A stretch of DNA of 20,404 bases. It comes from a virus. Shown here in pieces: positions 1,280 to 17,600 of the stretch (its first letter is position 1; the number at the start of each line of letters is the position of its first letter). A program made the position numbers and the translations under genes. The stretch covers positions 1 through 20,404 of the IMG/VR virus record IMGVR_UViG_3300031999_003193; one strand, 5' to 3'. The notes under the pieces were generated by a model. That model was not told where the DNA came from and made no database searches. It saw only the letters and a program-made list of their open reading frames with translations.

Positions 1280-1867
1280 ATGAAAACATGGATTACATCA
1301 GATCATCACTTTAGGCATGCAAATATCATCAAATACACCAATCGCCCATACGCCGATGTAATGGAAATGGACGACGAGCTTGTCAGTGTATGGAATAACT
1401 TTGTCGATCCGCAGGATACCGTATGGCATCTTGGCGACTTTACACTTGGGGGCAAAGAGCTTGCTGCATACTACTTTGGAAGACTTAATGGTCATATCAA
1501 CATACTCGGCAATCCGTGGCATCACGATAGTCGATGGATCAATGGTATGACAGGGGCGACTGGATTTAGTTCCAAATCAGGCTGGATGCCGTATCTCTTC
1601 TCACCAATCGTTGTCTTAGAAGAAGTAGACACGAACGAGGACGGTGATAGTATACCCGCTGTACTATGCCACTATCAACTCCTTAATTGGGATAGACAGC
1701 ACTACGGAAGTCTACATTTCTTCGGACACTCACACGGGGTTTCTGCACCAAGACATAACTGCCTAGACGTTGGTGTCGATAACGCCTTTAAGCTAACTGG
1801 TGACTATCGACCATTCGAATTCCAGGAAGCCGTAGAAATCGCACAAAGCCTAACATCTCCCTCATAG
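1280..1867 (+). CDS. Metallophosphoesterase (calcineurin-like)
   Basis: A 195-residue protein with the metal-binding series of calcineurin-like phosphoesterases in order: D8-x-H10 (SDHHF), G52-D53 (LGDF), G77-N78 followed by P79-W80-H81 in the place of the usual GNH, H131 (LCHYQL) and G149-H150-S151-H152 (GHSHG), then LDVGVD (162-167). It closely fits the phage and bacterial group of compact single-domain phosphoesterases. The dinuclear metal site should hydrolyse a phosphomonoester or phosphodiester, but the substrate cannot be read from sequence. The PW insertion in the GNH motif is typical of phage members. The start is one base after the previous stop, suggesting translational coupling. 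The stop codon lies in the loop of a terminator-like hairpin. Confidence 0.85.
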   Translation: MKTWITSDHHFRHANIIKYTNRPYADVMEMDDELVSVWNNFVDPQDTVWHLGDFTLGGKELAAYYFGRLNGHINILGNPWHHDSRWINGMTGATGFSSKSGWMPYLFSPIVVLEEVDTNEDGDSIPAVLCHYQLLNWDRQHYGSLHFFGHSHGVSAPRHNCLDVGVDNAFKLTGDYRPFEFQEAVEIAQSLTSPS

Positions 1868-1875
1868 ATGTTAGG
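1849..1875 (+). terminator. Hairpin ending the early-type operon
   Basis: A perfect 10-base stem (CCTAACATCT with AGATGTTAGG) and a 7-base loop, followed by GTTTCC-type sequence with only a short T run. It includes the stop codon of the phosphoesterase gene. A second hairpin follows at 1880-1903 (CGTCACTA with TAGTGACG). Together they separate the operon from the sugar-nucleotide operon. The weak T tract leaves open whether termination is efficient. Confidence 0.55.
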
Positions 1876-1879
1876 TTTC

Positions 1880-1903
1880 CGTCACTATTCTCATTTAGTG
1901 ACG
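1880..1903 (+). terminator. Second hairpin before the sugar operon
   Basis: An 8-base perfect stem with an 8-base loop, directly after the first hairpin and directly before the palindromic site at 1904. It has no T tract. It may be a back-up terminator or part of a regulatory structure that overlaps the -35 area of the next promoter. Confidence 0.4.
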
Positions 1904-1921
1904 ATTTCCGATGTCGGAAAT
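1904..1921. repeat. Palindromic operator-like site, copy 1
   Basis: ATTTCCGATGTCGGAAAT has two 8-base arms around TG. Its core TTCCGATGTCGGAA occurs three times in the window. Here it fills the spacer and putative -35 area just upstream of the extended -10 at 1923-1931. A repressor would block polymerase there, and a spacer-binding activator could also act there. It is 35 bases before the start of the wbpB-like gene. Confidence 0.6.
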
Positions 1922-1922
1922 A

Positions 1923-1931
1923 TGATATAAT
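1923..1931 (+). promoter_or_regulatory. Extended -10 promoter of the sugar operon
   Basis: TGATATAAT, an extended -10 with a perfect hexamer at 1926-1931. It lies between the palindrome and the AGAAAGGAG ribosome site of the wbpB-like gene. No consensus -35 is present 17 bases upstream, where the palindrome begins. This suggests a regulated rather than constitutive promoter. Confidence 0.6.
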
Positions 1932-1956
1932 ATAAACATAACAGAAAGGAGTTTAG

Positions 1957-2868
1957 ATGGAAAATTTTGCTGTCATTGGTGCTGCTGGTTATATCGCTCC
2001 AAAACACTTAAAAGCGATAAGGGATACGGGTAATCGTATCATTGCTGTTTTAGACCCCCACGATTCTGTTGGACTGCTAGATCAGTATGGTTATGATATC
2101 AAATACTTCTCTGACCAGGATAGGTTTGAACGTTTTCTTCAGAAGCTACGGTGTACTCATGATGAGGATCGTGTTCACTGGGTAAGTATTTGTTCCCCGA
2201 ATTACCTGCACGACTCTCACTGTCGACTTGCTATGGACACAGGGGCTGATGTAATTTGCGAAAAGCCTCTTGTTATCAGCCCATGGAATCTAGGTATTCT
2301 CAAAAGTATCGAAGAACGTACTGGACATAACGTTTTTACTGTTCTACAGCTTCGACATCACCCAGAATTGCTCAAAATCAAGGCTCAACTCGCTCTTGGA
2401 CCTGCCAATCAGACCCATCGAGTCAATTTACGATATATTACACCCCGTGGACGCTGGTACGATACCTCCTGGAAGGGAAATGTAGAAAAATCAGGTGGTT
2501 TGATCACAAATATTGGCGTTCATCTACTCGATATGCTCATATGGATGTTCGGAGATATCGAAAACATCAAGATTTACGTAAAAGGTGATCGGAGACTGTC
2601 TGGACAGTTCATAATGAGGGATGCTGTAGTGAATTGGTTCCTCTCAATTGACAAAGATGACCTCTCGGACGAGGAAGAAGAGATATGTAAACCCGTTCGC
2701 GTGCTTGAAATTGATGGAATACCATGTAATTTTGCAGATGGATTCACTGATTTACATACAAATGTATACAAAGAGATATTAAGGGGGTGTGGTTATGGTA
2801 TTGATGATGCTCGTCCAGCTATAGAATTGGCTCATAGAGTAAGAAAATATCTCGAGGAGGAGTCATGA
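1957..2868 (+). CDS. wbpB: WbpB/WlbA-like UDP-GlcNAc-uronate 3-dehydrogenase
   Basis: A 303-residue oxidoreductase of the Gfo/Idh/MocA family. The Rossmann nucleotide site is at the N-terminus (AVIGAAGYIAPKHLKAI, 5-21). SICSPNYLH (77-85), CEKPL (101-105) and TNIGVHLLDMLIW (184-196) match the WlbA/WbpB group closely, as do ITPRGRWY (161-168), the GFTDLHT segment (262-268) and GYGIDDAR (279-286). Members oxidise C3 of UDP-N-acetylglucosaminuronate using tightly bound NAD, which is recycled with 2-oxoglutarate. K103 and H189 are the expected catalytic pair. It opens a polycistronic operon, has a GAAAGGAG ribosome site, and overlaps the next start by four bases. The length is slightly below the usual 310-350. 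Confidence in the subfamily is high because similarity runs over the whole length. Confidence 0.9.
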   Translation: MENFAVIGAAGYIAPKHLKAIRDTGNRIIAVLDPHDSVGLLDQYGYDIKYFSDQDRFERFLQKLRCTHDEDRVHWVSICSPNYLHDSHCRLAMDTGADVICEKPLVISPWNLGILKSIEERTGHNVFTVLQLRHHPELLKIKAQLALGPANQTHRVNLRYITPRGRWYDTSWKGNVEKSGGLITNIGVHLLDMLIWMFGDIENIKIYVKGDRRLSGQFIMRDAVVNWFLSIDKDDLSDEEEEICKPVRVLEIDGIPCNFADGFTDLHTNVYKEILRGCGYGIDDARPAIELAHRVRKYLEEES

Positions 2869-3059
2869 ATGAGGTAGAAGTAATTAGTGAAGAAGAAATA
2901 CAAGAGAAATTCAGACAAGCAACGATGGATCCTGCCACACAACGCCCGGGTTGGTTCCATGTTGGTGACTTTATTCAAATAAATGGTAGGATTTTCCGTG
3001 TTAAGGGTGTTAAGCCTACGGAAATACGTCTAAAACTCGTTCGGGAGCCCACAAAATGA
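2865..3059 (+). CDS. 64-residue phage-type small protein inside the sugar operon
   Basis: Starts [20 protein letters not shown] and has a C-terminal part that looks like a small beta-rich fold ([20 protein letters not shown]). It is tied to both neighbours by ATGA overlaps, so it is probably translated with them. Short proteins with a 'GDxIxIxGRxFRVxxV' pattern are common in phage genomes, where their function is unknown. It is not a known part of the uronate pathway. It may bind an enzyme or nucleic acid, or may simply be a phage gene caught in the operon. The function is not recognised. Confidence 0.7.
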
Positions 3060-3589
3060 AATATACCAAACATCCAACCTCAGTTGTCGATGATAAGACC
3101 CAAATTGGTGACTATACTAAGATTTGGCACTATTCCCATGTCTCCACGGGTGCCAAAATAGGTCGCTGGTGTATTCTTGGACAGAATACATTCATTGGGA
3201 AGAATGTAGTCATTGGAAATACTGTTAAAATTCAGAATAATGTCTCTATTTACGAAGGTGTCACCGTAGAAGATGATGTTTTTATTGGTCCATCAGTGGT
3301 TTTCACTAATGTGATCAATCCTCGCTCCTTTATAGAGCGGAAGAATAAGTATAAACCAACCCTTGTCAAACAAGGTGCGTCTATCGGAGCTAATGCCACC
3401 ATCTTGTGCGGAGTGACAATTGGTGAGTATGCCATAGTGGGGGCTGGTGCAGTGGTAACGAAGGATGTTCCCGATTATACAATCGTTGTTGGGAATCCCG
3501 CTAAAAAGATAGGAATGACAAATCAGGAGGGAGACCTAGAGGAAAAGGAGAAGAAAGATGCTAGCAAGAATACAGATGCAGAATTTTAA
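3056..3589 (+). CDS. wbpD: WbpD/WlbB-like 3-N-acetyltransferase
   Basis: A 177-residue left-handed beta-helix acyltransferase. Hexapeptide repeats run through most of the protein ([63 protein letters not shown]). The segments [24 protein letters not shown] and [10 protein letters not shown] match WlbB/WbpD, which transfer acetyl from acetyl-CoA to the 3-amino group of UDP-2-acetamido-3-amino-glucuronate. It is shorter than the typical 190 residues; the usual extra C-terminal tail is replaced by a charged stretch ([16 protein letters not shown]) that overlaps the next gene by 32 bases. It should act as a trimer in the cytoplasm. The start overlaps the previous stop (ATGA). Confidence 0.9.
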
Positions 3590-4673
3590 GGTACAGTACT
3601 ATGGGATTAAAACAGAAATCGATGAAGCAGTACATCGTGTCCTAGAAAGTCAGGAATTCATCCTAGGAAAGGAGGTAGAACTCTTTGAAGAGGCTATTCG
3701 CATATGGATGGGTTGCAAATATGCTATTGGCGTATCATCTGGTACAGATGCACTAACTATGGCTCTGATGACAGTTGGAGTACGTTCCGGGGACGAAGTT
3801 ATTGTTCCTGCCTATTCCTTTGTCTCTACAGCGAGTTGTGTATCCAGACTTGGTGCAACTCCAGTATTTTGTGACATAGATCCACTAACCTACAACATCG
3901 ATGCTAGCAAGATAGTCCCATTGATTAACTCCAAGACAAAGGCAATCATACCTGTCCATATAGCGGGGCAGATGGCAGATACGGAGAAGATCAGACAGAT
4001 CGCAGATCTTACGAGTCTCTGGGTAATAGAGGATGCCTGCCAGGCCATCGGTGCACGAGAAGGAACAGCAATGGCTGGAACTATTGGGGATATAGGCTGT
4101 TTCAGTTTTTATCCCTCAAAGAATCTCGGCGGATACGGCGATAGTGGAATGGTCGTCACAAATGACGAAGATCTTGCCAAAAGGCTACGTATGATACGTA
4201 ACCATGGACAAGACTATAAATACCACAGTTCGATCATGGGTGGTAATTTTAGAATGGATGCCATTCAGGCTGCAGTGCTGCGCGTTAAACTAAGACATCT
4301 TGTTAAGTGGAATGCACAACGTAGATATCTCGCAGATCGATATAAATACTTTCTATCTGACGTTAATGTTGGATTGCCGTTTGAGGACTCTACCAAGTAT
4401 CATGTATATCATCTGTTTATGACTCGCCACGAGAATAGAGACAATATTCGCCTGTATCTTCAAGGACGTGGTATAGATACAAATATCTACTATCCCGCTG
4501 CACTTCCAGACCAACCCATCTACTGGGACGACACAATGGGTCTTCGTTACCCAGAAGCGCGTAGAGCAGCTAAAGAATCTCTCGCCCTTCCACTCTATCC
4601 AGAACTTGGTTTAACAGAACAGGAATATGTGTCTGCATGTATTCATGACTTCATGGGGAAGCGTGAGACATGA
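3558..4673 (+). CDS. wbpE: WbpE/WlbC-like PLP aminotransferase
   Basis: A 371-residue sugar aminotransferase of the DegT/DnrJ/EryC1/StrS family. Visible landmarks are SSGTDAL (60-66) for phosphate binding, [11 protein letters not shown] (156-166) with D159 contacting the pyridine nitrogen, and the PLP lysine K188 in [22 protein letters not shown] (215-224) and [11 protein letters not shown] (231-241) are typical of the WbpE/WlbC branch. It would transfer the amino group of glutamate to the 3-keto sugar made by WbpB, releasing the 2-oxoglutarate that WbpB uses to recycle NADH. The start was chosen at 3558 because AAAAGGAG lies seven bases before it, although this overlaps the acetyltransferase gene by 32 bases. 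The alternative ATG at 3576 has no such site. Confidence 0.9.
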
Positions 4674-5731
4674 AGATCGTAACCATAGTTGGCGCTCGTC
4701 CACAGTTTATTAAACTTGCCCCTCTTAGTGAGGCCATGAAGAGAATGGGACATATCGAATATGCTATTCATACTGGGCAACACTTCGATTATATGATGTC
4801 CGAGGAGTTTTACAAGGAATTAGCGATCACTACTCCAAATATCAACCTAAATGTCTCTAAGGGTACTATTACGCAGCAACTAGGCAAAATGATAGAGCAT
4901 ATTGGCGCTATCCTCCTGGAGCAGAAGCCACGTCTTGTTATGGTGTTTGGAGACACAACGTCTACACTCGCTGGAGCACTTGCAGCCAATAAGGTTGGCT
5001 GTAAAATCGTACATATCGAAGCTGGTATCCGAAGTTTCAATAGAATCATGCCAGAAGAGCACAATAGAGTGATAACAGACCATATTTCCGATCTTTTATT
5101 CTGCCCTACCTTAACTGCAACGAAAAATCTAGTTAACGAAGGTGTGCAGGGAGGGATTTTCTTCACGGGTGATATCACGTATGATGTCATTCTAGATCAC
5201 ATGGGAAAAGTAAGTTCCTCTGATATATTGGACAGGTTACATTTATCTCCCAAAAGTTATTCGATACTCACGATACATAGATCGTACAACCTCGACAATC
5301 CATATGCACTATCTGGAATTATGACTGGATTGGAAATGTCGGGTAGACAAATCATATTCCCCATGCATCCACACACTCAACAAGTCATGAAGAGTCAACA
5401 AACGAAGATTCCCGCGAATGTTACCACAATATCTCCAGTTGGATACGTAGAGATGCTTTCGTTAGAGAAAAACGCCATAGAAGTCATTACAGACTCTGGT
5501 GGAATGCAAAAAGAGGCATATTGGTTCTCTACACCATGTGTTACCCTGAGAACTGAAACAGAATGGCCTGAAACGACTTATTCTGGCTGGAACGTCTTAG
5601 TTAGTTCTAATCCTGTCCGTATTTATGCCGCTCTCTCTGGACACATATGGCCTACTGCTGGACCACTGCAGATATTTGGAAATGGCAATTCTGCGAAAAG
5701 TATGATGGACTTAATCGATGCATACGCGTAA
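4670..5731 (+). CDS. wbpI: WbpI-like UDP-GlcNAc3NAcA 2-epimerase
   Basis: A 353-residue non-hydrolysing UDP-GlcNAc 2-epimerase fold (GT-B like). It begins IVTIVGARPQFIKLAPL (3-19), followed by TGQHFDYMMS (35-44), GDTTSTLAGA (94-103) with D95, HIEAGIRSF (115-123) with E117, MPEEHNRVITDHISD (127-141) with E130, H203 in TIHRSYN, and DSGGMQKEA (275-283). RTETEWPETTYSGW (294-307) is typical of the WbpI branch, which makes UDP-2,3-diacetamido-mannuronate (EC 5.1.3.23), rather than of WecB. The usual HRxEN is HRSYN here. The start overlaps the previous stop by ATGA, and the end overlaps the next gene by 14 bases. It catalyses the last step of the pathway in the cytoplasm. Confidence 0.9.
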   Translation: MKIVTIVGARPQFIKLAPLSEAMKRMGHIEYAIHTGQHFDYMMSEEFYKELAITTPNINLNVSKGTITQQLGKMIEHIGAILLEQKPRLVMVFGDTTSTLAGALAANKVGCKIVHIEAGIRSFNRIMPEEHNRVITDHISDLLFCPTLTATKNLVNEGVQGGIFFTGDITYDVILDHMGKVSSSDILDRLHLSPKSYSILTIHRSYNLDNPYALSGIMTGLEMSGRQIIFPMHPHTQQVMKSQQTKIPANVTTISPVGYVEMLSLEKNAIEVITDSGGMQKEAYWFSTPCVTLRTETEWPETTYSGWNVLVSSNPVRIYAALSGHIWPTAGPLQIFGNGNSAKSMMDLIDAYA

Positions 5732-6644: not shown

Positions 6645-8266
6645 TGAAATCTAAGCGAATATATCAGGCAACCGAAGAAGAAGTAGAAATTATCCTGAAA
6701 GGTCAAGAAAGTCCAGACTATATCACTGGATACTTCTTTAAGCCCTCTTATGCAGATGAGGGATGGTATTTCGACAAAAACTTTACGGAGGACGGCGCAT
6801 GGCAGAAGGATATGCACTTTGCAGCACAATCACTGATTGTCCTTATTGGTGGCATCGGTTCGGGAAAGACTCTGGGAGTAGGAATGTCGGCATGTGTATT
6901 CGGAACTACGACACCAGATTTCAAGTTCCTGAATGTGGCGCAGAAGGAGTACCAGGCCGCCCAGATGTACGACCTGATAATCGAACGAGCGACGGATGCG
7001 CCGTTCGCCAACCTAATAACCTCGGCAGTACGCCGACCACACCACAAGATAACAATAGAGTATAAACTTGGCCCACAAACTATCCATTCCACACTTGAGT
7101 TTATGTCTGTCGACAGAGACGCCACCGGGATCTTCTCCTGGCGAGGAGACTGGATTAACGTCGAAGAAGCTGGACTTCTTGACAATCTTGATGAAATCTC
7201 CCGTAACCTCTCGACTAGACTTACGGGTAACACAAGAACGGGTAGACCTTACTTGGGTAGGTTTTCCTTCACCTCTAACCCTTGGGATACCCCCCACCTC
7301 TGGTATCTATATGACATGGCTGTCGCAGATCCAGAAAATTGTTTCAGCATTACTGTCTCTACAAGATCAAATCAAAATGTAACAGATAAACAGCTCGACA
7401 ATATGCTCAAGCATATTCCCGAGGACGAGCGTGCTCGCTTTATAGATGGTTCTCGTCCCGAAGGACAGGGCATATACTTCAACCGTGGTGCGATTGGAAG
7501 GTGCGAAGATGGACTATCTGGAGAAATGGTTAAACGTGCTGTTACCGAAAACATACCAGGATTTGTGTACGCAGAACAATATCAATGTGGCGTCGTGCAC
7601 TATGGTATTCCCCCCATTAAGGGACATATGTATTTCTGTATTGGAGACCCAGGCTCCGATAACGCTCCAGGCAGAAACGCTCCCTGCATTGGTGTCTGGG
7701 ACGTTACGGGCTTTCCCAAAGAGCCTATGGTACTCACCGCTTTCTGGTGGGGAAACGGCTTTGGGCGTATATCACCCTTCGTTGACAGGCTCCTAGAATT
7801 AAGAACTACCTACGACGCTATATTCACTGCAATAGATAGTACTGGACCTCAGAAGATGTTTGCCGAGCTTCTAAATATCCAGAACTTTGATCCAGATGTA
7901 GATTTAAGTTCTCCAGGCTCTGCATCGATTGCTGGTCTTGATTTCAGTGGTGCAAGGAAGCCAGCTTACCTAGTAGCAGCCAGACTTACTATCGAGAGTG
8001 CAAAAGTCATCTGGCCTAAGACTCTAATTGGTTTTCGTGCCCAACTAGCCAATTATGATCCCCTTAAAGATCGAGCAGGACAACCCAAGATACCACAAGA
8101 TATCGTGGCAATGTTGTCTATGTCATGTTGGGCAGCAAGGATATACTTCAATGCCGACCTTCCTGACGAAGTTGTTGACGAAAATCCGTCTCTTGGTGCA
8201 TCCATCCGAAACGCAAGAAGTGACCAAAGAGAAACCATCGAAGATCGCTCCAAAAGGGCAAGATAG
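6644..8266 (+). CDS. terL: Large terminase subunit (DNA packaging motor)
   Basis: A 540-residue packaging ATPase/nuclease. The start was chosen at GTG 6644, which overlaps the previous stop as TAGTG; an upstream ATG at 6545 would overlap the previous gene by 100 bases. The Walker A motif is IGGIGSGKT (68-76). The likely Walker B is DWINVEEAG (169-177), with Glu at the place usually held by Asp (VEE rather than VDE). The motif after it, FSFTSNPWDTPHLW (207-220), fits the coupling motif. The C-terminal RNase H-like nuclease has acidic residues in IGDPGSD (D335), TAIDSTGPQ (D398) and QDIVAMLS (D486). The motor pumps DNA into the prohead through the portal encoded next. It lies at the end of the sugar operon with no terminator between. 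Confidence 0.92.
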   Translation: MKSKRIYQATEEEVEIILKGQESPDYITGYFFKPSYADEGWYFDKNFTEDGAWQKDMHFAAQSLIVLIGGIGSGKTLGVGMSACVFGTTTPDFKFLNVAQKEYQAAQMYDLIIERATDAPFANLITSAVRRPHHKITIEYKLGPQTIHSTLEFMSVDRDATGIFSWRGDWINVEEAGLLDNLDEISRNLSTRLTGNTRTGRPYLGRFSFTSNPWDTPHLWYLYDMAVADPENCFSITVSTRSNQNVTDKQLDNMLKHIPEDERARFIDGSRPEGQGIYFNRGAIGRCEDGLSGEMVKRAVTENIPGFVYAEQYQCGVVHYGIPPIKGHMYFCIGDPGSDNAPGRNAPCIGVWDVTGFPKEPMVLTAFWWGNGFGRISPFVDRLLELRTTYDAIFTAIDSTGPQKMFAELLNIQNFDPDVDLSSPGSASIAGLDFSGARKPAYLVAARLTIESAKVIWPKTLIGFRAQLANYDPLKDRAGQPKIPQDIVAMLSMSCWAARIYFNADLPDEVVDENPSLGASIRNARSDQRETIEDRSKRAR

Positions 8267-9989: not shown

Positions 9990-10208
9990 ATGGCTAAGGT
10001 TACTGCAGAGGATCGTGAAAAGCATGCTGCCGTAAGTGGTGGAAGATTTCCAGTAACAAACAAGGCTCAGGCTTCATCTGCTTTGAAGTTGCGTGGGCAT
10101 ACTAAAAGTAAAGCCGAGAGACGTGCAGTAATTCGTGCTGCAGCCAAGTTTTTGCCAGAAGCGGCTTCTCGGGCGCTCGAAGAAGATAAGGCGAAAGGGT
10201 TACTATAA
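9990..10208 (+). CDS. Small basic protein, unknown
   Basis: A 72-residue basic protein beginning MAKVTAEDREKHAAVSGGRF. It contains FPVTNKAQASSALKLRGH and a run of basic helices (KAERRAVIRAAAKFLPEAAS). Short proteins with this 'FP...A..AL......RR.V..AAK' layout occur next to head genes in many phages, but their role is unknown. The AAGGATTAAAG ribosome region lies within the end of portal. It may bind DNA or the inside of the capsid. That is inferred from charge and position only. Confidence 0.65.
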   Translation: MAKVTAEDREKHAAVSGGRFPVTNKAQASSALKLRGHTKSKAERRAVIRAAAKFLPEAASRALEEDKAKGLL

Positions 10209-10209
10209 A

Positions 10210-10437
10210 ATGGCTCGTGATAAGGAGAAAAGAAATGCTTGGTATAGAAAGCATCGCACCGAGCGTTCTGAAGAAGTAAGAGAGAAGGAACTTGCGCATG
10301 GGAGAGAATATCATAACAAGTGGTATTCAGAACATCAGGCAAGTGCTAGAGACTCGTTCCTCAAATATATGTATGGAATTTCTCTGGATGACTACGAATT
10401 GCTGCAGTTGGCAGCGGACTACTTAAAGGAGGTCTAA
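10210..10437 (+). CDS. Endonuclease VII N-terminal-like protein, lacking the nuclease core
   Basis: A 75-residue protein. The start was taken at MARDKEKRNAW, one base after the previous stop. The pattern is a charged helix with repeated 'K/R-WY/Y' units (KRNAWYRKHR, HNKWYSEHQ) followed by YMYGISLDDYELLQL. It is the same as the lead-in of phage endonuclease VII-like HNH proteins, where a 'YGIsledYe.ml..Q.g.CaiC' stretch opens the zinc-bound nuclease. Here the chain stops 13 residues after DDYELL, before any cysteine, so no nuclease core is present. It may be a decayed nuclease gene or a kept DNA-binding piece. The function is not shown. Confidence 0.6.
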   Translation: MARDKEKRNAWYRKHRTERSEEVREKELAHGREYHNKWYSEHQASARDSFLKYMYGISLDDYELLQLAADYLKEV

Positions 10438-13336: not shown

Positions 13337-13984
13337 ATGGCGACAAGTTTTGGTAATCTTAAAGCTTTGGTGATACGTTTGGTGGCAGACGAAATAAGTC
13401 CTACTGCTAGTGTAATTAGTGGTATGACTACACCGTCCGAGTTGCTAAGCGATGCTATCAGTGCTGGACTTAAGGCAATCCTGCCTTGGGTCTGGAAGAC
13501 TGCTACATACCCCATCATTGCTGCGGCTACAGACCTTGATCTCCCTGGCGACTTATACAGAATTGAGGGAGTCTACGATGACTCCCTCAATGCCTACCTT
13601 AATGAGAATATCATTACTGCAGGCCTGCCATTCGCCAGTGAGTCCGGGAACATGTGGATAGAATACCCAGAAGGTCACATAACCTTCTTGGACGATCTAC
13701 CAGATGGTGGCACTTTATACTATGCTGCTTACTGGGCTGAACCAAAACTTGATGATGAGTACATTGAGGCTCCTCCGGTAGTGATACCTGGACTAGCGTT
13801 CTATGCTGCATCATACTGTTTACTCCCAAGAGCTACAGCTTCTGCTACCCTGCGACAATTCAATGTCAAAGTAGATAGTGGAACTCCAACTGAGAATCCT
13901 ATAATGGATATGTCGAACGCCTTTATGAAACGCTTTGAGATAGAAATGGGACGTGTGTCCTCTCGAGCAAAAGGTGTAAAATAA
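13337..13984 (+). CDS. Head-tail adaptor protein candidate
   Basis: A 215-residue protein directly after the capsid gene, beginning MATSFGNLKALVIRLVADEI. It has a helical N-terminal part, a beta-rich middle (DLDLPGDLYRIEGVYDDSL, GHITFLDDLPDGGTLYYAAYW) and a helical C-terminal part (MDMSNAFMKRFEIEMGRVS). Adaptor proteins that bind under the portal ring are found at this place and are typically 100-220 residues. Its stop overlaps the start of the next gene by one base. The role is inferred from position and layout. Confidence 0.6.
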   Translation: MATSFGNLKALVIRLVADEISPTASVISGMTTPSELLSDAISAGLKAILPWVWKTATYPIIAAATDLDLPGDLYRIEGVYDDSLNAYLNENIITAGLPFASESGNMWIEYPEGHITFLDDLPDGGTLYYAAYWAEPKLDDEYIEAPPVVIPGLAFYAASYCLLPRATASATLRQFNVKVDSGTPTENPIMDMSNAFMKRFEIEMGRVSSRAKGVK

Positions 13985-14526
13985 TGACACATATCGTTGA
14001 CATCCTTTGTGACACGCTGGTCGATAGGCTTCAATATGATTTAATTGATTCCATACCGACTAGTGACCTCGCTAGGGCTACTATCGTCAAAAAAGGTCGT
14101 TTCCAGGATGATCCTGTGAAAGACTCTATCTATCTGGCGGTCCAGGGAGGGAACCTGGAGAATCCTAACCAACTAGATGGCGTAGTCAGCTTAGGGAGCC
14201 ATCCTAACATCGGCTGGAGCATGCCTCCATACGAAGTAGGTGGTAGTGTTGCTTGGTGGCGAAAAGGGACTATCAGTATTGGTTGCTTCTTTATTCAACA
14301 GCAATACGAAGAAGAAGAGGCCATGGAGTATGCTTATGCAGTTCTTGGAAGAGCAGAGTATGCGGTAGAAACACTAGACCTCAATGGCTTAACCCCAGAC
14401 GACTGGGGCGAAATCGCCTTCAAAATGTTCCTTATAGGGACCAACTTCTTTATGTCTGGTGGGCCTCCCAAGTCTTATATATGGCGAGGAAAAGTCCACT
14501 GGATGTGCCTGACACAAAAACCATAG
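13984..14526 (+). CDS. Tail completion / neck protein candidate
   Basis: A 180-residue protein beginning MTHIVDILCDTLVDRLQYDL. It starts with a helix like those of neck and tail completion proteins, followed by a beta-rich body (DSIYLAVQGG, GTISIGCFFIQQQ) with several tryptophans. The usual siphophage order is capsid, adaptor, neck, tail terminator, tail tube, and this gene fills the slot before the tube. Its start overlaps the previous stop (TAATG), and an AGGAGGT site follows its end, 14525-14531. No enzyme motif is seen. Confidence 0.6.
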   Translation: MTHIVDILCDTLVDRLQYDLIDSIPTSDLARATIVKKGRFQDDPVKDSIYLAVQGGNLENPNQLDGVVSLGSHPNIGWSMPPYEVGGSVAWWRKGTISIGCFFIQQQYEEEEAMEYAYAVLGRAEYAVETLDLNGLTPDDWGEIAFKMFLIGTNFFMSGGPPKSYIWRGKVHWMCLTQKP

Positions 14527-14541
14527 GAGGTTTTTAATATG
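14525..14541 (+). promoter_or_regulatory. Orphan ribosome site and start codon before the homing endonuclease
   Basis: GGAGGT followed after seven bases by ATGGCTCTAG. This is a fully formed start signal in the plus direction at the place where the tail tube gene should begin, but what follows is the antisense strand of the endonuclease gene. The frame after it stays open to 15213 but encodes nothing recognisable. The best reading is the original start signal of the tail tube gene, cut off by insertion of the endonuclease. Confidence 0.5.
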
Positions 14542-14544
14542 GCT

Positions 14545-15120
14545 CTAGTATGGAATATCATGACTATCAAGGATGCCCTTGAGGCGAGTGATCTCGTCAC
14601 CAAGAGTAATTCCTTTACCATGGTTTCCAATATGAATCTCCAGGTTTTTGGGGTCGTTGTCTTGCTTGTTACCATTCTTGTGGTGTACAGTTTCATCTCT
14701 GGTAAGAGGACGGCCCAGTTTCTTGGCCATAATCAATCGGTGCTCCAGAACTCTTGGGCATTCATTCTTCTGCCCCATTGGCTGAGCCAGTTCCTGATCT
14801 TTCTGACTCAAGCCGCTGATAGCAAGAGTGATATATCCCTCACTGGTAATATGTCTTTTATAGGGCCTATAACCAGGGTGTGGTCTAGGTGGATTGCCAG
14901 AACAGTGAATGCAAAGGCCCGTAAAACTTTTTCTATGTCGGACCCGTTCCATTATGGCTCCCCGTCTAACCCATCGGTTTTGACTGCATCGTCCACAGGT
15001 TACAAGGAAGGCAGTGGCGTGTTTGCTAAATACTTTCCAATCATCCCAGTGAATAACACTCCCGTGTTGAAGCTGAATAAATTCGGACTCTATTGGCGAA
15101 ATGCTAGCTTTTCTTGGCAT
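14545..15120 (-). CDS. HNH homing endonuclease
   Basis: A 191-residue protein, the only minus-strand gene within the structural module. The start was chosen at MPRKASISPIESEF because AAAGGA lies seven bases before it and an extended -10 promoter lies upstream; a longer reading from 15252 would overlap the tail tube gene. It has a four-cysteine zinc site (C42-GR-C45 and C70-IH-C73) and the HNH_3-type core EHRLIMAKKLGRPL (126-139), VHHKNGN (145-151), QDNDPKNLEIH (153-163). Such proteins cut a homing site in alleles that lack the gene and so spread between phages. It lies exactly between the orphan start at 14539 and the current tail tube start, fitting an insertion at that gene. Confidence 0.88.
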   Translation of the reverse strand: MPRKASISPIESEFIQLQHGSVIHWDDWKVFSKHATAFLVTCGRCSQNRWVRRGAIMERVRHRKSFTGLCIHCSGNPPRPHPGYRPYKRHITSEGYITLAISGLSQKDQELAQPMGQKNECPRVLEHRLIMAKKLGRPLTRDETVHHKNGNKQDNDPKNLEIHIGNHGKGITLGDEITRLKGILDSHDIPY

Positions 15121-15163
15121 AACCTGATCCTTTCTTTGATTTCCATGTCGAGAATGTGCTGTA

Positions 15164-15172
15164 ATTATAACA
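15164..15172 (-). promoter_or_regulatory. Extended -10 promoter of the homing endonuclease
   Basis: On the minus strand this reads TGTTATAAT (complement of 15164-15172), an extended -10 with a perfect hexamer. It lies about 44 bases before the endonuclease start and gives the gene its own transcription, independent of the plus-strand operon. Confidence 0.55.
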
Positions 15173-15203
15173 CGCAATCCCAGACATGGGGAGGTATAAC
15201 AAA

Positions 15204-16280
15204 TTGGCCGTAACTGCAATGGCAGGAATTGTCTCCTTCGGTCCACAACCAAATCTTGGTACTATCACTGCGTCCTGGTTTAAGCATCGTGTAACACAGA
15301 TCGACTTAGCCCCGAATGATGATACCCGTTTAGGTGTACCCGAAGTGGGTGGTATTCCTGTTCCTACCTTTCCGTATAAAGCTGGCGTGCTCGTAAGTGG
15401 TGGCATGACCATTCAGCCTCGTTTAGAGAGCGTCTTCGGATGGCTAATTTACGCGGCACTTGGTAAGTGCGACACTGCAACGATAATCGAAATTGGCACG
15501 CCGTTCGATCACGTTTTCCGTTTCAAAACAGACGCTGCTGATGTACCTTTCCTCAGTGTCCGTAAAGCAATTCCACGCCGACATGGCGCCACGGACTCAG
15601 ATCTCGGGGAAGTATTCAAGGACTGTAAGGTCACTTCTTTGGCGATGACCTTTCCTAACGATGCCCCCATTACTGCTCGAGTGGATATACTTGGACGCGA
15701 GTTCTCGTTTGACCACGATCCTGCATCCTGGACCTATGCCAACCCCACGTTCGAGGACTATCCATCGATCCCTGTTGGTTGTGAAACAAATGGCTATATC
15801 AAGTTGCCTGACTTCAATAGTGGCGCTGAGCTTCCTGTTGTAGCTGCAACTGTGACATTCCAAAATATCCCTCTCGATCTACGTCAAGAGCGTGTCTTTG
15901 GCTCTCCGTTCCTTGAAGATATCACGATTGTCATGCGACAGTTGACCTTCGATGTTCTTGTGAAGTGGAACGATCCTGATCTGTACGCTACTATCCTAAC
16001 GGGTAGTATAACTGGTACGGCCTGGACCGCGAAACCCTACACTGGACGCTTCGAGGTCTATATCAACTCTCCAGATGAAATGCCAAATGCATCATTATCT
16101 CACTACTCCCTCAAGATTGAGGCTAGTGAATGCATGTTCGCCATGACCGAGGGAATAACCCTTGCTGGTAACCAGGCTGTTATGGCTCGGTTTACTGGTA
16201 CGGCTCTTGCTCCTCCTAGTGGTGACTACTGCAGGTTCACGTTGCGCAATGAAGTAAGCAACTATAGCTGGCCAATCTAA
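15204..16280 (+). CDS. Tail tube protein (major tail protein)
   Basis: A 358-residue protein, large for a single-domain tube protein. The TTG at 15204 is chosen because GGGGAGGT ends eight bases before it. The ATG at 15186 has no ribosome site, and the ATG at 15219 lies too far from this one. The chain is beta-rich, with GVLVSGGMTIQPRLESVFGW, HVFRFKTDAADVPFLSVRK, LGEVFKDCKVTSLAMTFPND and APITARVDILGREFSF in the order seen in siphophage tube proteins. Its C-terminal part (about 180-358) may be an added surface domain. It would stack in rings around the tape measure. It is followed by a terminator-like hairpin. The TTG start and the upstream endonuclease suggest a start re-made after insertion. 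Confidence 0.75.
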   Translation: MAVTAMAGIVSFGPQPNLGTITASWFKHRVTQIDLAPNDDTRLGVPEVGGIPVPTFPYKAGVLVSGGMTIQPRLESVFGWLIYAALGKCDTATIIEIGTPFDHVFRFKTDAADVPFLSVRKAIPRRHGATDSDLGEVFKDCKVTSLAMTFPNDAPITARVDILGREFSFDHDPASWTYANPTFEDYPSIPVGCETNGYIKLPDFNSGAELPVVAATVTFQNIPLDLRQERVFGSPFLEDITIVMRQLTFDVLVKWNDPDLYATILTGSITGTAWTAKPYTGRFEVYINSPDEMPNASLSHYSLKIEASECMFAMTEGITLAGNQAVMARFTGTALAPPSGDYCRFTLRNEVSNYSWPI

Positions 16281-17589: not shown

Positions 17590-17600
17590 TATGGTATAAT
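17590..17600 (+). promoter_or_regulatory. Extended -10 promoter before the two-repeat gene
   Basis: TATGGTATAAT, identical to 518-528, lies 20 bases before the ATG at 17621. The hexamer is 17595-17600. No clear -35 is present. It could give separate transcription to the chaperone-region genes after the terminator-like hairpin upstream. Confidence 0.6.

Follow-up and report, generated by a model that had tools for sequence, protein, structure and literature searches.

How can an essential and highly expressed structural gene be invaded by a mobile gene within its second codon and still specify the same predicted protein? This question is raised by the tail-tube gene of the virus described here. 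The window, that is, the whole stretch of DNA analysed (20,404 nucleotides), is a 20.4-kb virus record carrying the head and tail operon of a tailed phage, in the order terminase (PHROG 2), portal (PHROG 64), an adaptor-like gene, a gene encoding a 180-aa protein and the tail tube. The 358-aa tail-tube protein (15204..16280, + strand) is a member of Phage_tube_2 (PF18906; E=4.7e-8, 33.4 bits, above the gathering cut-off of 27) and of PHROG 290 (tail), and its position in the tail operon fits this assignment; a search for its relatives among annotated phages found none. The 180-aa gene (13984..14526, + strand) immediately precedes the tail tube in the majority of relatives, and its TAG stop codon (14524-14526) overlaps the native tail-tube Shine-Dalgarno sequence, AGGAGGT (14525-14531). 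In the two most distant relatives, L008 and L009, a gene resembling a glycosyltransferase by sequence (~1860-3004) stands upstream of the tail tube in place of the usual 180-aa tail gene.

Elsewhere in the window, the phage carries four sugar-nucleotide genes (1957-5731), namely those of a Gfo/Idh/MocA oxidoreductase, a hexapeptide acetyltransferase, a DegT-type aminotransferase and a non-hydrolysing UDP-GlcNAc 2-epimerase, the last of which scores above the WecB cut-off. We take this cassette to resemble the WbpB/D/E/I steps leading to the diacetamido-sugar nucleotides of O-antigen pathways.

The empty allele and the insertion point

The tail-tube protein served as query against 2.9 million viral contigs and gave a set of relatives at 16 loci, about 11 of them distinct, at 29-89% identity. 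The nearest are L003 and L004, whose tail-tube protein is 89% identical and whose allele is uninterrupted, reading AGGAGGTTTTTAAT-ATG-GCC-GTA-ACT, with AAAAACCATAGGAGGTTTTTAATATGGCCGTAACTGCAATGGCAGGAAT present without a break. As the initial annotation had anticipated for relatives lacking the endonuclease, GGAGGT and ATGGCC run straight into the codons now found in the window. The window itself contains the L003 and L004 sequence split by 665 bp (14544..15208) between ATGGC and the remainder of codon 2. The left flank matches both relatives through ATGGC and the right flank from TGGC on, the two flanks being collinear; in comparison with L003, 92 of the 100 bases to the left of the insertion point and 92 of the 100 to its right are identical, as against 67-89 farther out. 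Placement of the insert is ambiguous by 4 bp, as TGGC at 14540-14543 is repeated at 15205-15208 and the limits 14540-15204 are equally possible; the TGGC common to both junctions would represent a duplication of 4 bp of the target or, alternatively, microhomology.

The native start, now stranded, is composed of AGGAGGT, a 7-nt spacer and ATGGC (14539-14543), together occupying 14525..14543 on the + strand, and is identical to the uninterrupted start of L003 and L004. From this comparison an insertion in codon 2 of the tail-tube gene is near certain, and the proposal that a mobile gene had entered within the first codons is thereby borne out. Neither the insert nor a TTG start occurs at any of the 16 relative loci; since all of these begin with ATG and lack the insert, the ATG arrangement is considered ancestral and the TTG derived. 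An insert-free relative starting with TTG, which the initial annotation had set against its own reading, is absent from the set (16/16 start with ATG). The site consequently displays a presence/absence polymorphism, occupied in the window and empty at the same point in L003 and L004, and a scan of the viral contigs for the exact empty-site pattern matched only these two.

A tail-tube protein of unusual length is encoded by L007 (3001-4368), with ~100 extra residues after position ~90. This was considered as a second insertion and rejected, the extra stretch being in frame; it probably represents an additional domain and not a mobile gene.

The endonuclease gene and its signals

On the - strand, the insert carries the gene of a 191-aa HNH endonuclease (14545..15120; ATG at 15120, stop codon TAG at 14547-14545), identified from its translation by Pfam HNH_3 (E=5e-8) and, as best PHROG, by the HNH endonuclease family 20891 (E=2e-19). 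Its stop codon abuts the native tail-tube start, with a single base between it and the left junction, confirming the earlier observation that a full start signal at 14525-14543 is followed directly by an antisense endonuclease. The HNH catalytic motif is intact, with EHR...VHHKNGN...N...NL all present, and is preceded by two Cys pairs, CGRC and CIHC, that suggest a zinc ribbon. The nearest relatives in annotated phages are HNH proteins of actinobacteriophages and others, 31-34% identical over 69-81% of the query. Searches of genomes returned no close relative and only one distant match, in an archaeal genome; no solved structure was matched by sequence, and no counterpart was found in five insert-free relatives, three of which are more distant. 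As judged by its family, the enzyme is likely a homing endonuclease. A free-standing HNH cassette of this kind, inserted antisense into codon 2, would spread by repair after its product cuts or nicks the uninterrupted tail-tube start, and its insertion would remove the target site from carriers.

The endonuclease ORF takes up 576 of the 665 bp of the insert, and the remaining ~88 bp hold signals for both directions, with the promoter motif and the ribosome site of the endonuclease on the - strand and the tail-tube start on the + strand. A Shine-Dalgarno sequence, AAAGGA (15128..15133, - strand), stands 7 nt before the endonuclease ATG, and ~45 nt ahead of that start lies a perfect extended -10 motif, TGTTATAAT (15164..15172, - strand). 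Six copies of the motif are present in the window, where 1.2 would be expected. Three other TGnTATAAT copies, at 520-528, 1923-1931 and 17592-17600, fall in intergenic gaps just ahead of phage ORFs, and L003 has one at 6737 that is likewise in a gap ahead of an ORF; the endonuclease copy belongs to the type used by the phage ahead of the genes at 1957 and 17621. TGnTATAAT is probably the promoter type of this phage and, because the motif is over-represented and three others lie in gaps ahead of ORFs, TGTTATAAT is probably the promoter of the endonuclease. Scans for terminators and for two-hexamer sigma-70 promoters gave nothing over chance level.

A further short ORF in the window (10208-10437; MARDKEKRNAWYRKH...YGISLDDYELLQLAADYLKEV) resembles the start of an endonuclease VII-type HNH protein, ending before the catalytic part, and is possibly a decayed second homing gene. 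Its sole Pfam match is weak and is to another family.

The probable replacement start and the open antisense frame

At the right end of the insert, GGGGAGGT (15188-15195) is followed by an 8-nt spacer and by a TTG at 15204 that opens the tail-tube frame, an arrangement (15188..15206, + strand) present in no relative. The initial annotation had the tail tube opening with a TTG on the far side of the insert, which is confirmed, and had further proposed that a replacement start was carried or formed at the right end; this gains support from the predicted N terminus, M-A-V-T-A-M-A-G (MAVTAMAG), which is identical to that of L003. The tail-tube gene has acquired another start codon and leader through the insertion, with a predicted protein that is the same from its first residue. 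A strong Shine-Dalgarno sequence with the TTG would in this way reopen the gene for the same product, and TTG 15204 is likely the replacement start in use. A likeness between the native and replacement start regions had also been pointed out, and it is real but uninformative: the two align with a score of 4.0, as compared to 9.0 and 10.0 for two other start regions of the phage against the native one and 3.5 for three more, and what they share is the Shine-Dalgarno consensus and the 4-bp TGGC of the junctions. The idea that the right-hand start duplicates the whole start region was rejected because the likeness is no greater than that of other phage starts.

The stranded ATG heads a read-through frame of 224 codons (14539..15213, + strand) that spans the insert and ends in a TAA (15211-15213) whose first base follows that of the TTG by seven positions, so that the frame overlaps the replacement start. 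The codons of this frame lie exactly opposite those of the endonuclease, and each TTA, CTA or TCA in the endonuclease would therefore stop it; none of its 26 Leu and Ser codons (14 Leu, 12 Ser) is one of these three. The probability of such an open frame is 4e-4 with the codon usage of the phage, 6e-4 with the third-base usage of the endonuclease itself and 3e-4 by Monte Carlo, the statistic being post hoc and P near 1e-3 after correction for three frames. Windows of 191 codons from other phage genes were never equally open (0/2108), and the longest antisense open run in any frame of the other 13 genes tested is 166 codons, as against 224 here.

These features are consistent with the tentative reading that the endonuclease coding sequence is kept free of antisense stops because ribosomes from the host start must cross it to reach the replacement start. 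The native start is possibly still in use, in which case its ribosomes would translate the insert antisense to the endonuclease, terminate at the TAA and begin again at the TTG just before it; translation of the operon would thereby be maintained, and that of the tail tube would remain coupled to the genes upstream. Passage would be required since polarity could arise if ~670 nt were left untranslated midway along the message of a structural operon; a restart is plausible since a ribosome terminating just past GGGGAGGT-TTG would be well placed for it. Such a relay across the insert, suggested by the established behaviour of coupled bacterial genes, is conceivable and somewhat short of probable. 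A cost would be incurred if a 224-residue antisense product were synthesised in the amounts typical of a structural gene, and this counts against the relay. The read-through product has no match to any Pfam or NCBIfam family, and inspection of the overlap by eye revealed no slippery heptamer for a frameshift into the tail-tube frame. The predicted accessibility of the new Shine-Dalgarno sequence is not unusual for this phage and lends no support to coupling; RNA structure hiding that sequence was considered as a basis for coupling and set aside as uninformative, low predicted accessibility being common at the starts of this phage.

It may instead be that the insertion is real while the native start is a mere relic, the open frame being a product of chance or codon bias and the TTG being initiated freely, a reading that is likewise somewhat short of probable. 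The TTG indeed has a strong Shine-Dalgarno sequence of its own at good spacing, and the endonuclease has other codon oddities. Nine of its 12 Ser codons are AGY, and a foreign codon preference could account for part of the open antisense frame; among HNH relatives, most carry antisense stops, with the one exception of the distant L016, which is higher in GC (0.55) and antisense-open. Against a relic stand the low probabilities under the codon-usage nulls (P about 3-6e-4) and the fact that the open frame is exactly that of the native start and ends at the new one.

Both the relay and the relic place the tail-tube start at TTG 15204. Initiation at ATG 15186, which would add six residues, or at ATG 15219, which would remove five, is unlikely: both codons share the reading frame and, as ATG, are stronger starts than a TTG, but neither has a Shine-Dalgarno sequence at a usable distance, and the L003 N terminus is reproduced by the TTG only. 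The TTG would be irrelevant altogether if the insert were a group I or group II intron with an antisense endonuclease, the splicing of which would restore ATG-GCC-GTA. The insertion point lies inside conserved coding sequence, where exact excision would restore the gene, and the insert folds somewhat better than its shuffles (z=-4.2), but there is no match to an Rfam family anywhere in the window. Furthermore, 0/5 junction placements combine a final U of the 5' exon with a final G of the insert, as for group I, and 0/5 begin with GUGYG, as for group II; the ORF fills 576/665 bp and leaves little space, with start signals in the remainder, and a new Shine-Dalgarno sequence and start would be needless. 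The absent Rfam match, the unfit junction bases and the antisense direction of the gene place the endonuclease within neither an intron nor an intein, and the fact that the insert closes with a start of its own for the tail-tube gene likewise argues against an intron, which is accordingly a very improbable explanation.

Pattern scans of the viral contigs found the exact left junction and the right end of the insert in no other contig and recovered no other copy of the cassette or its ends, leaving the window as the one occupied allele known. Although these junctions occur on a single contig and the record is a 20-kb virus fragment, an assembly chimera in which the insert was wrongly joined to the phage contig is improbable in the extreme, as both flanks meet at the same empty-allele point with a 4-bp overlap, the joined product retains a working start and base composition is alike (0.451 vs 0.45). 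The explanation as a whole, comprising an antisense HNH cassette in codon 2, a TTG restart, homing and the relay, is considered likely, the relay itself at the more tentative grade given above.

Relation to known homing genes

Free-standing homing genes normally lie between genes or split their target. In phage T4, segD, located between genes 23 and 24 in the structural-gene region, encodes a GIY-YIG endonuclease of the free-standing kind and is the sole homing endonuclease gene of T4 opposed to its neighbours, with no recognised promoter (PMC2988022). The present gene shares with segD its orientation against its neighbours and its place in a structural-gene region, but it is an HNH gene located in codon 2 and bearing a promoter motif, whereas segD is intergenic and of the GIY-YIG type. 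The antisense frames of segD contain 9, 12 and 26 stops, T4 being AT-rich, as compared to the one open antisense frame of the present gene.

HNH genes residing within host genes are typified by mobE in nrdA of Aeh1 and mobA in gene 60 of T4, insertions that split the host protein into two polypeptides with function kept (PMC2988022). The present cassette is likewise an HNH gene inside an essential coding sequence, but it is antisense, and the protein would remain whole by means of the new start at its right end. With segG and gene 32 of T4, and in similar cases, the endonuclease gene carries promoters of the downstream gene, favouring its retention (PMC2988022). There, too, a mobile gene bears expression signals for an essential downstream neighbour; the signal of segG is a transcription promoter, whereas that of the present insert is a translation start. 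The closest relatives in annotated phages, the HNH endonucleases Jabbawokkie gp30, Squillium gp42 and ctXG6705, are sense-oriented and lie between their neighbours, in contrast to the antisense gene described here.

The present case combines traits of segD, of mobE and mobA, and of segG, with the carried signal moving from transcription to translation. A literature search of incomplete coverage found no paper on an antisense homing gene that provides its target with a replacement translation start. The window and its empty relatives form a before-and-after pair, in which a probable homing gene has entered the second codon of a gene that is both essential and highly expressed and has left its predicted protein unchanged. 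Should the relay prove true, the mobile gene would be selected on both strands, for its enzyme on one and for translatability on the other, and its antisense strand would act as a translation bridge leading ribosomes to the new start of the invaded essential gene.
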